Assembly (NCBI GenBank): GCA_948567375.1
Contig: OX419755.1
Span: 62,686,944-62,750,943 of the forward strand
Length of the DNA stretch: 64,000 nucleotides
From: Lunularia cruciata
Taxonomy: Eukaryota > Streptophyta > Marchantiopsida > Lunulariales > Lunulariaceae
Direction: 5' to 3'
The translations under genes were made by a program, and so were the position numbers. Below, piece by piece: positions 32,142 through 55,640 of the stretch. Numbering within the stretch: the first letter of the stretch is position 1; each line of letters opens with the position of its first letter. Under the pieces are notes generated by a model. The model searched no databases, was not told the origin of the DNA, and saw only the letters and a program-made list of their open reading frames with translations.

Positions 32142-32840
32142 CTAGTAGGACATGCATCCTGCAAACACACCACATAATTCACTTTTCTTACAAAGATTAT
32201 AGGAAACTAGAGAAATATCATGGTGCATAGTCCACTTCTTATCAATAACCTTACCTTTTAGGTCAATGTAATCATGGATTTGCCAGCATTTGTAGAGAGG
32301 ATATCCATTCTCATTACATTGCATTTTGTTAATAAACCAAGTGGATATCTTTTTCTACATTTCTTTCTTCTATATAGGTGTATTTGGATTTTCATTGCCA
32401 TATGGACCATGAATAAAACACATTTTCCCTATCTCATATGCTTCAAGATAACATATTGGATTAGGAATCTCAACAAACACCATGGAATTGTAATCCTTAG
32501 GAGTGTGCATCTTGGAAGCTTCATTTGGAATCAATAACATGTAAGCATGGGTAACCTTCTTTTCCAAATTCAAGAATCCAAATCTTTGTTACAACTTTAC
32601 CAAGATTTTTTTTGTTTACATCCTCTAGAAGCTCATAAAGTTTAAAATAAAACATTTGACTTACTAAAGGTGGATGATCCTTCGTGACTTGTAATGGGAG
32701 GAGTGCATATGCAATTTCTTTCCATATTGGATTACATGTAAATATAATAAAAAGATCTGGTTTACCAAACTTACATACCAAAGCCATTACATCTTGGTAA
32801 AGTTGAGAGACATGGCTTGTTCACCATCCTTATCCTTGAA
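32142..32840 (-). mobile_element. Helitron remnant, Rep region fragment
   Basis: Minus-strand frames match the same Helitron region as the 13.4-15.7 kb remnant. 32521-32787 has FGKPDLFIIFTCNP, ALLPLQVTKDHPPLVSQMF, LYELLEDV and LGKVVTKIWILEFGK. 32370-32573 has HTPKDYNSMVFVEIPNP and GKMCFIHGPYG. 32142-32324 has NENGYPLYK and GKVIDKKW.MHH. These follow one another in the order of the intact protein with frame changes between them. HUH nuclease and Pif1 helicase domains are absent. It is clearly the same family as the plus-strand copy but in opposite orientation. Confidence 0.85.
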
Positions 32841-33920: not shown

Positions 33921-36900
33921 CTAGTAATTATCCTGTGTCTCCGTTTCTGCATAATCCGTGAAGTCTGCCACTTGGACATTTTGAGTTTCTTGTTTCTCTT
34001 TAAGGCGGAGCTCTTGTATGCCCATTTTCAAGGCTGGATCGCAACCAAAATTTGCGGCAACCAGCGGCTTTGGGCATCCTGATTCACAGAGCACGCACAC
34101 CGAAAGTGAGTAATCAAGTGGACGGGTCGAAGAGACAACTCGAAGAAGTCAGAAACGAAATAACCACATATGCTGTACACTATTAACTCCATGAGCACTC
34201 ACAAAGGTTAGCAACCACAACTGGTTAGCAAGCACAAGTTTTTATTTTCTTCATTTCATGACAAAGCTACCCACAATAAGGAGATAAACACTTGACCCAA
34301 GTGGAGTAGATCAACTACCGGGGATTGCACATTTGCACTTCTTGCGGGGATGATCTCTGTTGTGCCTTGTGATGTACTCCATCACAGCCGTCTTCTCATA
34401 AATGTGTTCACAATCCTTACTGGGACACACGCACAAATGATGAGCTGAAAAAGTACAAACACCTGGTTTCCTGAACGGGAATATCTCATCTATGACCCTT
34501 TTCAGTTCCAAAAAGGCTAAATTTTGCGAGGCCTCACCTGCGCACAGGATCTTCAAGTTGCGTGACGGGCTTGCCACTAAGGGGGCAATTGGTGTTCTTC
34601 ACCCCATATTGTGTAGTTAGCATGACTATTTCCTCCTGCTCTTGGCCAGGAGCTGCTTCTCCTGCATGGTGAACATTCTGTTCCAGAGAGTTCCAGTTAC
34701 TAAATCATTGACATTCTCGGACCTAATTATATTTTGCGATTCACGTACCTGAGTCCCGGCAACTCCAGTCTTATTAGGTTTCCCTTCTAGTTCTATTCGT
34801 ACTTCAATGCTGCCCATGTTAGGACTACCCTGTCCTATGAAGCAGGCTAGGAGAAAAAAACAATGTGCAGAAAATGTAAACTACAACAAGAGAGAGACAA
34901 ACATGTGCATTTTGAGCAATGGGAGCAGAAGTCGATAGAAGAACGGGGGTCCAGAACCCACTTAGTAGAGAACATGCATATAGAATTGATGAAATGCAAG
35001 CATGGAGGGATGCAAATTGAATCGAAGGTAATCTAACCAAGAAAATAAACAGCGTAAGATAAGCAGCGGAATTGGTGGCATATTGTTTTATGGTATGCAA
35101 AACTCGGTATGAGAACTACGTTTCACACTCACGTGACTGGACTGAGAGGACATGACTCCGTTACTGTAACTGATATTTGACTTTCGTACAGCCGGAAGTG
35201 ACATGGCCTCGAGTGAAGACTTGAGAAATAGAATATGTGCACTTGCAGACGAGGGTAAGTGCGAGCAAGTGGAACTGCTAGAATAAGCGATTACGCAGAA
35301 AGTGAGAAGAACATGTTAGCGGGAGAGACAGACAGGATAACAAAGCCCTGTTTATAGTTCTGTCCTATGGAGAGGCTTAGGAGGAAATTAAAACCCACGA
35401 GCGTGTGTGTAGGAGCTGGGATATAGGTATATGAGAGCAGAAGCCGTTCTGGGAACGGGTGATCCAGAACTGATTAAATGCAAATGATCGATAACCAAGA
35501 CGCACTTTATGCACAATGCTAGAATAGTGATAAATCCATAAAGTAGAATGCATCGAATGTAACCTAAGCAAAGGCATAATTGCAACAAATTGAGAATAAC
35601 ATATATCTAAAGGACTAGTAAACAACTTGAAATCAATAATAGCTTGCAAACGAATGCGAGAAATATAAAACGTTATGTAATTGACTACCAGTAAGCAGTA
35701 CGTGAACAATGAAAATTAAAACGTAGGCTGGAGTCGGGTAGGAACACTGTAGACACGGGAGGTCGAACCATGAATCAGGCAAAGATCGAAGGAAAAATAA
35801 TAGGGAGGGAATTAGCTGGGGAATGGAGGAGTGGAACAATGCGAGAGCTTATGGATGGTGTTGCTGCGAGACATATCGAAGTGTAACAGGGTAATGAGAG
35901 CGAAGCGAAAGAGGACAGGATATGAAGTATATCGCAACAAGCGCTATGGACACTTGAGTTCTGAGACACTAAACAGCATAGGGAAGCAGAAGGCGGCCAT
36001 ACTAAACCTCCACAAAAACACATGCGACTTCATCAGTGCCTCGCGCAGTGCCGAAGTAGCTGAGCAAGTGTCAGTACCCCTCGTACCGAGTTTCTGCTCG
36101 AAAACTCATGAGCGCCAAGGCACTGCGTAGGAGCTGGGATAATGTATACTTGGGGCATGCTTTATGTCAAATGAGTCCTTCAACATAAGGACAGAATAGA
36201 AGTAGCCGAACCATAAGAAGTCTGCCATCATTGGTGGCATGTACTTAACATTTTGCCACCATACCAGATGCCGTTAAGGGCAAACTGAGAACCATTAAGC
36301 ATATCAGCGAGGCTGTGGTCCTGATTGCCAGCTTGCTTCATTTTAAGACCAAAAGCAGTATAGAAACTTACCCATACAGCTTGGTTGAACTGTTCGTAAC
36401 ACGGATGAGCACGGGGGTCAAAGGGTGTAGCCGCTTGACACTGATTTGCGACTTGGGTCAGCAGTCCCTCGAAGTCTGTCGGCTGTATATCACATTGCAA
36501 ATTCAGGGTTAAAAAATGAGGAAATGACAGAATCTATGTTAAAAAGATGTAGACTTGATAATGTAAGCCATATCTAAAGAAAGCGTTACAGAGACGGTCA
36601 CTCACCTCAGTCCCTGCCGTAAAGTTGGTGCTCAAAGATGTGAGAGCTAAGCAGTGATGGTCAAGATCATTGGTGCACTCCACAACCTCCAGCAATGCCT
36701 TTCGGATTTCTTCTACCTTTGCAAATAATAATTGAAGCAGAGAAGTGTGAGAATATAATCATACCATGGCCAAGCTCAAGTAATCCTGTTCACTACCGAT
36801 TCAGACTGGCTTAATATTCCATAGAGGTTCTAGTGACAGCGAAGAAATGATGAAGATCTATCTTGTCCAAGTGCGATTTACTGAAGAGGTAAATTTCTTC

Positions 36901-37360
36901 TTCTTGACTTTTACATTTCGCATTTGGGACAGATGAAAGAGCACCGTGTGGTTTATTTGCTGGGTACCTCTTGTACATCAGATAGTCTCACGATAAAATC
37001 AGGTGGTTTCATTCATTTCCTCGATGACTAAGAGACCAAAGGTAGATTGCATTAGTATCTGCCCTGAAGAGAAGTGTAGCCTGTCTTACAGAGTGGGAGT
37101 CGCGTTCCTTCTCCAAATCTTCTGCCACCATCTTGAACAGAATGCAGTGAGAATAGATGTCCTGCCAGAGCCAACAGTAAACACCGACAAGCACGTTCAT
37201 CTCGAGACTTTACAATTCAGTGCAGAATCTCTCAAATTACAGGGCACTACGGTACAAAGTTAAGTTTCCTTAATGAGGTGGAACGTACAGATTGAAGACT
37301 ACGGGCTGTCCCCTCCAAATTGCGCACTGCTGACCGAATTCTCTCCGTGGCTCCTGCCAT
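33921..37360 (-). CDS. MMS21: E3 SUMO-protein ligase NSE2/MMS21 (spliced, 7 coding exons)
   Basis: Coding exons on the minus strand: 37360-37289, 37161-37090, 36716-36606, 36482-36372, 34677-34538, 34419-34319 and 34078-33921. All introns are GT-AG, and phases close to 255 codons (254 residues), near the roughly 250 of the Arabidopsis protein. NSE2 is the SUMO E3 subunit of the SMC5/6 complex in the nucleus, acting in DNA repair and cell-cycle control. Residues 1-122 form the helical part that binds SMC5 (LEKE, ALLEVVE). 122-139 has the WNVHHAGE and EEIVM signature. The SP-RING spans about 150-206, with NCPLSGKPVTQLEDPV, then DCEHIYEK (Cys172, His174), then CAIPGC (Cys199, Cys204) as zinc ligands. 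The acidic tail has CDPALKMGIQE and ADFTDY. Cys204 depends on the last intron: without splicing, the frame ends one codon after CAIPG. The start has a good context (A at -3, G at +4). The 1.7-kb intron 36371-34678 holds no recognised gene. A second ORF precedes it on the same exon. Confidence 0.93.
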
Positions 37361-37387
37361 TCTCTTGCTGATAGACTCAAATTGTCT

Positions 37388-37696
37388 TCAACGTTTTCGA
37401 GCTCTCTTGATCTCGATGTCAATATTTAGACACATTCGTTCCCTGCGAATGAAAGAGAAACACACCTTGAGAGAAAAACACATACCGTAAGAATGGATGG
37501 AAGAATAATCTACTCTCTTGACTCCAGAACCCGTGGGTCTTTCTCTAAAGACTTCAGTAAGTCCCTTGGATGATGATAATAATGAGAAAATCCATCAATC
37601 AAGAAGAAGGTAAGCAAGGGGTCTGAGAAAGCAGACAGAATGCAGCAGTCCCCAAGCAAGTACTAACCTGAAGGGTGGTTCGTACTCAGCTGTCAT
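37388..37696 (-). CDS. Spliced 44-codon upstream ORF on the NSE2 transcript
   Basis: Minus-strand pieces 37696-37668 (29 nt), 37564-37514 (51 nt) and 37442-37388 (55 nt) join through GT-AG introns into one ORF of 44 residues plus stop. It starts MTAEYEPPFR, continues with DLLKSLEKDPRVLE, and ends in the basic KRARKR. The two splice phases (2 and 2) close exactly, and the last acceptor follows a strong pyrimidine tract (TTTCTCTTTCATTCGCAG). The third piece runs on without interruption into the first NSE2 coding exon; its TGA lies 27 nt before the NSE2 ATG. I do not recognise the peptide. It is charged, probably helical, with no signal peptide or membrane segment. It could be a separate microprotein on a dicistronic mRNA, or a leader ORF that controls NSE2 translation. 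An N-terminal extension of NSE2 is unlikely because of the in-frame stop. Splicing is inferred, not shown. Confidence 0.55.
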
Positions 37697-38249
37697 AGTA
37701 ATCAATTCCCATCAATTCCCCAGAACAACGATCCTCCCCGCAGCTGGTAGATCCTTGAGAAACACTCAAATGAAAAATCCATGTTCAGATTCACGGAGCT
37801 GCTCTCATTCAGTCTTCTCGTGAGTTGTTCAAAATGCCGACAAATCGAATGATGTCTGTTTGGTTCAGGGCACAGAGCGAGCAACTAGAGAATGGCGGGA
37901 GTATTCCGACCGGATATAGCCGGTGCATAATAAGAACACGTCGCAGGAATGGGCAGGGTGAGGAAGCATGGATGTTACATGGGGGCGCACCTTGTCACCC
38001 TCAACTTCCTTTCCAACTCGATCAAGCATGTGCAACGACTCTGGTGGATGAACATGCTGCTGACTTGACATCCATCCATTAAGGGCAGAGAGCATAGAGA
38101 ATCATCTTTAGTCTCCACGGAAAGGGATTTAGTTAGTGCATTTAAGCGGAAATGCCTTGCTCGGAATCGGCCATGAACCTCATAGCATAGACAGTGGGCT
38201 ATTTCGGAAGGTATACATCTGATTATTGTGAACGGTAGGAAGAGAAAAC

Positions 38250-38344
38250 GGGGCTTATCCCCATTTTACCTCACGTGCTTATCCTTTTACCGCTTGATGG
38301 GTCTTCGCATCCTTCTTGTTATCCTACGCGTCACCTTTATCCTA
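38250..38344 (+). repeat. Dispersed repeat pair, copy 1
   Basis: Shares with 43227-43330 a head GGGGCTTA-CCCC, then TTACC, GCTTGATGGG, TCTTC-CATCCTTC, TCCTACGCG and CACCTTT-like blocks in the same order, roughly 70-75 percent identical by eye. No coding potential; an old short interspersed repeat of unknown class. Confidence 0.75.
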
Positions 38345-39512
38345 TCGAAAGAGGAAAGAGATGGTGAGAAATGGATGCCACCAGGACACGTAGATTCCAG
38401 ATCAGCCAAACATCCCTAACACGTGGGTACGCCATGTAGGTCTGATACATCCAATGCTAACATGACTAGCCTCGATGGAGTTCCGACATACCATATCCTC
38501 CAGCCTCAGTTATGTAGCGCCAGCCCATTACAGTTTTTTGTCCTATCTGAGCCCATGGACATCCCATCCTGTAACCTATTCACCCATTTCCGCGCCTGGT
38601 AGGTAATACACGCAGATGTGGATGGCATAAATCCTTCTTCGGTCTCTCTTGAACGCGGAAGCAAATCTGCCAGAGAATATGTGCATGCGCCGTGTGATTT
38701 TCTTGTGGTAGAACGGGAAGTCCAGGGTTGATCGACACAATACGGGAGGAAGATGCAGTTAAAGCAGCAGGACATCAACATGCAATGTTGAGCTGAGCTG
38801 GGCTTTCGTAACAACATTTTTACTGGTCCGTAACCGGGAGTAGAGAAGGGTGCAGAAGGACCAACCACGCTCAAGCAAACCTTGTCTTGTGGGTAGATAA
38901 TTCTCCCGGCTTCTCCACAGTTGTTACTAAGAAATCTGGGAATGTTAGGCTCGTGCCAAGCATATATATGTGTGAGCCGGAAAATATTAGTGTAGTAGAT
39001 CCAAATCTTTGGCAAAGCACTATTTCTTGCTAGAGATTGGAATAGGACGTGCGGAAACTGTACGATTGCTGGACATCTTTTTTGTGTCCTTACTACTTCT
39101 ACATCGGCGTATAACTAGTAGAGGTGAGCAATTATATCATCGGCTTCGATAAGCTCTCACGTGCTACTTCTATCCTCTTTTTGATGGGCTACATGCAGAA
39201 AGAACCACGGTTTCCTGAGCTGTTTCTGGAGGATTATATGACTGGTGTTTGTTCAGCACTAGATTTACGTTACGATGCCCCTGTACGCTATTCATGAACA
39301 GGAATTGACTGCACGAATCATTTTGGCTGCATACGTGAATGAAGGAAGGTAAATGCTGGTCTATCTTATACAGTAGCGATATGCGGGATTGGCTGGTGTC
39401 ATGCTTCACTCTGTCGACTCACAGTGTAAATAACACATACATCAATTATACATTTCCTCAAGTTGTAACCACAATTTAGCGTCGTGAAAGGGCAGTATGG
39501 TCACCTCTCAAG

Positions 39513-52753: not shown

Positions 52754-54410
52754 TCATTGCGATCCAGCAGACATGTCTTCGTCTGCATCGTCCTCAGAAG
52801 CGTTCTCCTCCTCATCCTCGCAAGAGTCAACGCCATGGGGTGCGTGACCATTGCCGAAAGCTCGGATGTGGTCCTTTAACGACCTTTTGTGCTTGAAGTC
52901 CGACCCACATATGCAAAACCAAAGTTTTCCACAATTCTTCTCGTGTGTCCTCCAATCGCCACGGACTGCGAAAGCTTTGTTGCACTTTCGGCACATGAAT
53001 GGTTTGATTCCGTGCTTTCTCTTGTAATGAGTTTGGAGCGTTCGGAAATCCTTCAGAGGCTTGGCCCGAGGGTGATCGATGTTGTTCCGGCAACCTTGCG
53101 CACAGCAGTAGCATGGCAATCGTAGCATTGCTGTGGGCTGAGTTCCTCGTAGGGACTCCGGTCCTTTCCGGTATTGTGAGCCATGTCCCCACATGTGCAT
53201 CTGTACAGACAGAAATGAAGAGAAATCATGAATCCATTTGCTCTCGAGACCATAATTAATGCCGACGACAGCGCCCATTGTCAATGCTAAACTCGCTCTA
53301 AGCCACTGTTCCTGTGCAAGTACCAATGAAGTATACAGCTTTAAATTCTCCAAGATGCTCCGACCAGCTGTTGCAATCTGTGGTGTTTAACGTAGCTAGC
53401 AGTAGAATACCATAACTATATCCAGATGTGGATTCAATAATTATAATATAAATCATTCTTCTCGTATGAAAACAACATGCACCCACGAGTTTGCATCTCT
53501 CAATTCTTGGAGTGCAATTAATAATCTATATTATCACTCTTTCGAGCTCGACGAGAATTCTTTCATACTACTGCTGGAACCAGTATTAACACAGCGAGAA
53601 GATAAGAGATCTGAGTGTGGGACTGACCTGCATGTTATTGTATCGGTTGAAAGTCTTGCTGCATACGGGGCAAGAAAACTGCGTGGGACCGACGAGTATC
53701 TGAGCAGGAGTGGGAATCCAATATTGGCCATCAGGCAGTCGTCCTCGAGCTCGGTTGAAGCGGTCCTTGTCCAGACCGCCCATGGGACTCTCGTAGTTGA
53801 GGCTACCCATCATTCCCTCGACCACGGAGCTTCGCAAGCTGCTCATCATTGAGCAATCAGAAGAGGATGGGGGTCCAATATGCAGCGCAACGGTGACATT
53901 CTCATCAGGTTCATTCTCGTCGACAGGGCCAGACGACGAGGCGCTAGGTAAGAGAATAGCTGTTCGGAGAGGGCCTGCTTCTTCCTGCTGCTGCTGCTGG
54001 TTCTGGTATTTCTGGTTCATGGCAGAGCTGGAGGAGTTGTTTGTGGGAGGGCTTAGACTCAGAAAGGGAAGGGCTTGAGCGTTCCTGGCTGGAGCAGGTG
54101 AAGGGCATCGCCGTTGGTGATTGTAGTGGGTCTGCGCAGTTTGGTAGAATTGACTGTGAGGACCACCGAAGATATTGTAATGGGATGCGGCTGAGGCCGG
54201 AGAATCGGCTCCTGAGGATGGGCCGGATACGCTGAAAGAAGTCCCAGCATTGTCCTCCGAAGTAAACGGGATGGCCACGGGTAATTGGGTCACAGGGGAA
54301 GCCAAGTGTGGTTTCAACCATTCACAGAAGGGGAGAGGGTGCGCTGTGATGGAACTCAGGGAACGGGGCACCGCCACCGAGCTACTCTGGGCGTGGTACC
54401 TTGAGCTCAT
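52754..54410 (-). CDS. WIP: WIP-family C2H2 zinc-finger transcription factor (2 exons)
   Basis: Exons 54410-53628 (783 nt) and 53200-52754 (447 nt) are joined in phase 0 by a 427-nt GT-AG intron; the product is 409 residues. WIP proteins (TT1, NTT and relatives) are nuclear transcription factors of plant development; the liverwort member is known to act in air-pore formation. N-terminal motifs typical of the family: FCEWLKPHL (28-36), ALPFLSLSP (113-121) and [11 protein letters not shown] (172-182), with a short Gln run at 138-142. The WIP domain begins [18 protein letters not shown] at 230. Zinc finger 1 has Cys247, Cys250, His263 and His267, and the intron cuts it after NMQ261. The second exon carries the other three finger-like modules ([64 protein letters not shown]). 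The acidic tail follows GNGHAPHG. The start is the first in-frame ATG and gives the usual N-terminal spacing. Nothing looks broken. Confidence 0.95.
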
Positions 54411-55640
54411 CGTGCTCAGAACCCCTCCTTCTTCCTCCCCTCGAGAGCCCACTTCGAATGTCGGTTTCGTTAGGAGCCCCAGATTGACTGACTGACTGAT
54501 CTTCCTTGAAAGATGATCGAGCAAACCAACAACCTGTGTCTTCTGTAGTAGCTGTTGATGAACTACTCAGATGTGTACTTTAATCCAGCGCGGATCTAGA
54601 TAGTACTCTAGCTTCGAGCTCAACTTGTAGTATCCTTGTTCCCCTCCAACTGAAAGACTACTAACCTGTCTGACTGCTTCTTCTTCTTCTTCTTCTTCTT
54701 CTTCTTCTTCTGCTTCTTCTTGAGCCTGGGTCAACAAGAACAACGAAGAACAACTTTCCACTTTGGGGAGTTTGAGCTTGGAGATAGAGCAGCTCGAGGT
54801 GATGATGTTGATGATGATAATGATGGTTTGTGATCGCTATTCAGAAACTCCGACTACCCGCCGAATCCAATGATCCATGACAACTGAGTCGACTGCGTAT
54901 AAACATTCTTGGAGAGCGTCAGAGACGGAAATTTCTCGAGCAACAATTCCAATGCTGCTATACTTTGATTGATACCTTTGCTTCCCTGTCTGTACACTTT
55001 TCTAAAGAAGAAATGCAGAAGCCAGTTAGATCAGTTCTTCAACTAAACAGACCCTTCACTTGCTTGCTTTTCTCCGAACGTTGCTCGCTCCCGTTGTGGC
55101 TGGCTGTACCAGCTAGAGACTGTTGTCTTGTTCTTGTTCTTCTTCACAGAAGCAGCCGTGTTCCAGTAGTACACTGTTATCGATCGATGTACACAGTAAA
55201 TGAGATTCTCTTGACGCGCGGCTGCCTAAGTTTCGTGCTAGGTCACCGAGTGACTGAGAGAGATGTTGAGTACATGACTGAGTGAGACAGACACATTTAA
55301 TTCGCGCACAAGAGCGAACGATCGGAAGATGGAATTCCTTCTTGCAGACACTAAGCTTAGAGAGAGCTCGACGACAACAACATGAGGCAGGCAGGTTGTA
55401 ATCACGAGTCGTAGTACATTCTAAGGGAAGTAGATGAGGAAGAAGTGAAGTGAGTAAAGTAAAATGGCCCCGTGGGCACTTAAGAGAGGGAATTCTAGAG
55501 TGAGAGAGAGAGTACCGTAGTAGCCAAGGTGTGAAAATGACAAGTTTGAAACCATATACCCACTGGAGAAGAGGAGAGAGAGAGGGGAAGAGCTGCAACT
55601 CAGTGAAGTGCTACTGCTGTTATGATGGATGGGGATAGAT
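54411..55640 (-). promoter_or_regulatory. WIP gene leader and proximal upstream region
   Basis: The minus-strand frame stays open for about 150 nt upstream of the WIP ATG but has no earlier ATG, so this is non-coding leader. A GAA/TTC run lies about 270 bases upstream and CT-rich patches around 55.5 kb, composition often seen in plant leaders and core promoters. The transcription start cannot be placed from sequence alone. Confidence 0.4.
54678..54710. repeat. (TTC)11 microsatellite upstream of WIP
   Basis: Eleven TTC units on the plus strand (GAA on the WIP sense strand). Confidence 0.95.

Follow-up and report, generated by a model that had tools for sequence, protein, structure and literature searches.

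The NSE2/MMS21 gene and its surroundings

The window, that is, the whole 64,000-nt stretch of Lunularia cruciata DNA that was analysed, carries an NSE2/MMS21 gene on its minus strand, preceded by the features that are the subject of this analysis (Table 1). The gene was assigned to NSE2 because its predicted product has a zf-Nse/SP-RING domain (zf-Nse, PF11789, 44.1 bits at a cut-off of 27) together with full-length similarity to plant MMS21 proteins. Fourteen relatives were recovered, the nearest being the Marchantia paleacea protein, with 77% identity over 96%, and then that of Riccia fluitans, with 62% over 98%; the further ones came from Diphasiastrum, Sphagnum, Physcomitrium, and seed plants. 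The predicted N-terminus, MAGATERIRSA, fits that of the M. paleacea protein (MAAATERIRSA), which supports the ATG at 37360 as the start of NSE2. The context of this ATG, AAGAGA-ATG-GCA, is a strong start context.

Table 1. Positions of NSE2/MMS21 and of the observed and proposed features of its leader in the window
Feature	Position	Strand	Description
NSE2/MMS21	33921..37360	-	seven coding exons, 254 aa
NSE2 coding exons	37360-37289, 37161-37090, 36716-36606, 36482-36372, 34677-34538, 34419-34319, 34078-33921	-	
Spacer between upstream ORF and NSE2	37361..37387	-	27 nt, in the NSE2 frame, without in-frame stops
Upstream ORF, last piece	37388..37442	-	TGA at 37390-37388; further ATG at 37435 (15 codons)
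Proposed single leader intron	37443..37667	-	225 nt; donor CAG/GTTAGT, acceptor TTCATTCGCAG/GG
Claimed middle piece	37514..37564	-	51 nt, frame kept when skipped; doubtful exon
Upstream ORF, piece 1	37668..37696	-	29 nt, ATG at 37696, context ATTACT-ATG-ACA

The searches against the L. cruciata genome itself covered 566 Mb in 74 contigs. For NSE2 they returned eight matches, namely its own seven exons and one weak partial match elsewhere, and the gene looks single-copy on this basis. The weak match (C10:14134149-14134379) corresponds to residues 128-206, is 37% identical, contains three stops, and could be an SP-RING relative, either decayed or distant. Apart from the exons of the gene and this match, no NSE2 paralogue that might have brought its own leader was found in the genome.

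Other elements were also observed in the window, all of them on the minus strand. A Helitron_like_N fragment (32527-32820, E 3.4e-22) lies downstream of the 3' end of NSE2. Between 25100 and 27862 there are pieces of a retrotransposon, which we take to be of the Ty3/gypsy type, with the integrase zinc-binding domain, chromodomain, RNase H, and reverse transcriptase in separate frames. The open frames in the interval 52760-54566 belong to a C2H2 zinc-finger gene; the part 52760-53386 matches STOP2-like (E 3e-20) and BIRD-IDD (E 1.2e-12) zinc fingers, and 53592-54566 gave weak zinc-finger matches only. Upstream of NSE2, a 201-codon open stretch (38512-39114) showed no Pfam match and, by a rough hand estimate, is ordinary for a window of this length. 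The search against Rfam gave no match in the window at gathering thresholds.

The upstream reading frame and the predicted leader intron

A previous sequence-only reading of this DNA joined three pieces upstream of NSE2 into a spliced 44-codon ORF and proposed a dicistronic mRNA or a coding leader. When the pieces were rejoined, their GT-AG borders, their phases, and the length of the ORF from ATG to TGA were all reproduced, with introns of 103 and 71 nt; the reported distance of 27 nt between the end of the TGA at 37388 and the NSE2 ATG was likewise confirmed. With its ATG and an in-frame stop both preceding the main ATG on one strand, the frame has the sequence layout of an upstream ORF (uORF). 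It shares the frame of NSE2, and its TGA is the sole in-frame stop from its start to the NSE2 ATG. Since the middle piece measures 51 nt, the ORF without it has 27 codons and keeps its start and stop. The same TGA closes ORFs of 44 or 15 codons in the two-intron form, of 27 or 15 codons in the one-intron form, and of 31 (from 37483) or 15 codons in the unspliced form, in which the ATG at 37696 opens 33 codons with a different stop. Six further ATGs are located in 38000-37697 and begin ORFs between 1 and 39 codons long; that from the ATG at 37712 extends over the beginning of the claimed 44-codon ORF.

Splice sites were scored with general plant site frequencies, as opposed to frequencies trained on the Lunularia genome. 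On this scale, the donor at 37667 (6.3) and the acceptor at 37443 (7.8) were the top sites of each kind within 37900-37361, and the acceptor score bears out the strong pyrimidine tract described earlier before 37442. The outer pair has a summed score of 14.05, which not one of 1000 shuffles and not one of 1000 window pieces taken from before random ATGs reached; thus, the leader intron is the best-supported new element at the locus. These scores make an intron between 37667 and 37443 probable in the NSE2 leader, and, given the strong intron signal, the upstream ORF likely lies inside a transcribed leader.

The inner sites that border the middle piece scored -0.2 (acceptor, exon start at 37564) and -1.8 (donor, 37513). 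Among the introns of NSE2 itself there are a donor of -2.3 and an acceptor of -0.4, and their pair sums range from about -0.7 to 6.7, so that the two claimed leader introns, with sums of about 6 each, score about level with the best of them. As sites this weak are found among the gene's own introns, there is room for a middle exon; we regard it as doubtful and estimate its chance at about one in four.

Chance occurrence and the search for relatives of the peptide

The frequency with which such chains arise was determined for GT-AG chains with up to two introns of 60-300 nt, at least 44 codons, and a stop no more than 60 nt from the main ATG. Bare chains of this length were common: dinucleotide shuffling produced them in 217 of 300 cases, and 224 of 300 real pieces of the window, each 400 nt long and taken from before a random ATG, contained one. 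The argument that matching phases are improbable by chance therefore fails for bare chains; counting the splice scores speaks in its favour (a total at least as high as observed in 1/300 shuffles and 0/300 window pieces), but this rarity is largely due to the strong outer splice pair. When the outer pair was fixed and the interior of the intron was shuffled, 229 of 2000 cases still gave 44 codons or more with inner sites no worse than those observed, and some read-through cassette was present in 1460 of 2000. When the two-intron leader was shuffled 2000 times, 110 of the shuffles held a uORF of at least 44 codons; for the one-intron leader, 466 of 2000 held one of at least 27 codons. The tight spacing between stop and start, which had been put forward as what re-initiation or a bicistronic message would show, proved to be common, as in 721 of 2000 shuffled leaders some uORF stopped no more than 27 nt before the main ATG.

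The search for relatives of the peptide, also proposed in the earlier reading, revealed no convincing one in the protein database, PDB, Pfam, or the L. cruciata genome; such searches are insensitive for a peptide as short as 44 residues. The protein search requires shared five-residue words, and the absence of homologues there is thus weak evidence. The best PDB match, an engineered repeat protein (E 0.0019), owed its score to the sum of four weak repeats, none of which had an independent E below 510, and was attributed to chance, as were the other six PDB matches listed (E 1.1 or worse). In the genome, the two matches of the peptide were both its own pieces, and the 408-base stretch that contains it matched itself only at E<=0.001. 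In the open-licence literature, At3g15150 was absent from the papers on uORFs and conserved-peptide uORFs (CPuORFs) among the matches listed. The codon usage of the peptide is ambiguous, if slightly coding-like, at 0.025 bits per codon. A set of 483 overlapping open stretches of non-coding sequence had a mean of -0.18 (sd 0.15), and 41 of them reached the value of the peptide; windows of NSE2 scored at least 0.19 by this measure, which was trained on NSE2 itself.

The NSE2 protein of Riccia fluitans (P0003), in which about 118 extra or different residues replace the conserved start, was considered as a source of a related leader. This N-terminus may reflect a leader that was translated as protein, or a wrong gene model. 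A BLASTP comparison of the peptide with the Riccia protein gave a 3-residue match only. A tblastn search with the first 122 Riccia residues found nothing in the interval 37280-38500 at E<=10; the closest match lay at 38887-38831 (E 3.9). Sliding the degenerate codons of the Riccia sequence over 38600-37280 yielded at best 41 of 60 nt, which 26 of 40 shuffles equalled, and shifted-frame readings compared with the M. paleacea N-terminus were equalled by 9/60 and 25/60 shuffles. A shared “EER,” spotted by eye, was discarded.

Interpretation and comparison with known systems

With a probability of roughly 0.7, we interpret the 44-residue frame as an ordinary uORF located in a spliced leader of NSE2, one of several short upstream ORFs that most likely arose by chance. 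The frame is most likely ordinary since nothing in the data shows it to be a real peptide gene. This interpretation follows from the outer splice pair, which stands far above the shuffles, from the weak inner sites and the near-chance occurrence of the middle exon, from the frequency of uORFs of such sizes in shuffled leaders, and from the lack of a peptide relative in the searches, the six other ATGs, and the strong context of the NSE2 ATG. Several points run against it: the full scored chain is rare in the unconditioned nulls, the codon usage leans slightly toward coding, the two claimed introns score about level with the best of NSE2, 44 codons are at the long end of the shuffled distribution, and the homology searches have little sensitivity at this length. 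Whereas the anatomy and the chance rates were established directly, how the leader would be transcribed, spliced, and translated, and with what effect, is an inference. Some scanning ribosomes would translate the uORF, and NSE2 would be made by ribosomes that pass it by leaky scanning or resume after it. If transcribed and translated, the uORF may mildly reduce the output of NSE2, and the peptide itself is probably without function.

The other explanations attribute a role to the peptide, to its frame, or to neither. If the 44- or 27-residue peptide were under selection, it could exert sequence-dependent control over NSE2, e.g., by ribosome stalling near the TGA. The stop common to all splice forms tested, the codon usage, and the rarity of the full chain in the unconditioned nulls agree with such a CPuORF; however, no relative was detected in proteins, Pfam, or the own genome, with tools that would miss unannotated leaders, and known CPuORFs are rare, at under 1% of transcripts (PMC3426882). 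We regard this explanation as unlikely. We consider it equally improbable that neither piece is part of the mRNA and that NSE2 transcription begins downstream of 37442, leaving the upstream ORF intergenic: the sole TATA-like motif found in 38300-37361 is a candidate at 37918, whereas the strong donor-acceptor pair suggests a transcribed leader extending upstream of 37667. Alternative splicing to an in-frame acceptor before 37367 might also fuse the uORF to the main ORF and extend NSE2 at its N-terminus. The upstream ORF and NSE2 share a frame, both donors would join this acceptor in frame by hand arithmetic, and the acceptor scores -0.1, which is not below the claimed inner acceptor; fusion isoforms of this kind are known, as stated in part of PMC7106846, and 3 of the 14 NSE2 relatives (Riccia fluitans, P0006, and P0008) are N-terminally extended. 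However, these extensions are unlike the peptide in the alignment, that of Riccia also by direct tests, and the other 11 relatives begin no more than 8 alignment columns away from the start of NSE2 here; fusion appears a rather poor candidate.

The proposal of a dicistronic message or a coding leader stood in part. A spliced leader and an upstream ORF that reaches the first NSE2 coding exon are likely, whereas a functional peptide or second cistron gained no support, given the lack of a relative in the searches, the weak inner sites, the near-chance occurrence, and the other upstream ATGs. In the furthest-reaching reading, a liverwort bicistron or peptide-coding leader, a peptide of 44 residues with a basic tail would be encoded by spliced pieces, share an exon, the frame, and the mRNA of NSE2, and tune the output of NSE2, with a frame-keeping 17-codon cassette exon switching between the 44- and 27-residue forms; this we hold to be very unlikely. 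Hardly any weight falls on a true bicistron, in which ORF 1 would encode an independent small protein and NSE2, as ORF 2, would be reached by leaky scanning or re-initiation, as in CDC26-TTM3. The geometry fits, with a short ORF 1, 27-nt spacing, and a shared exon, but ORF 1 has no protein family or relative in the protein, PDB, Pfam, and own-genome searches. In addition, spacing fails to tell bicistrons from uORFs in green algae, according to a section of PMC11892635, and ORF 2 was rarely translated in 7 of 8 tested Arabidopsis readthrough bicistrons, as reported in an excerpt of PMC9768141.

Were the peptide real, it would tie a SUMO ligase of the SMC5/6 complex to control encoded in the leader, and this in an early lineage of land plants. 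The ordinary uORF that we prefer has a modest yield: the NSE2 gene model gains a predicted leader intron, and the locus provides a measured case of how readily GT-AG chains of this size arise.

Compared with known systems, the locus resembles CDC26-TTM3 of plants and algae and the green algal bicistrons in its short ORF 1, longer ORF 2, and small spacing, as far as these are described in the available text of PMC11892635. Unlike in the algal bicistrons, ORF 1 is here a predicted frame without a recognised family; it measures 132 nt without the stop, against a median of 291 nt for ORF 1 in A. protothecoides given in the same portion of that paper. The locus is similar to CPuORFs, some groups of which extend to bryophytes according to a passage of PMC9305500, in the length and place of the uORF; their peptides are conserved across species, and for this one a protein database search, insensitive at such a length, gave no match. 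With ordinary plant uORFs it has in common a short ORF in a predicted leader before a main ATG in good context, and at the sequence level it does not differ from them.
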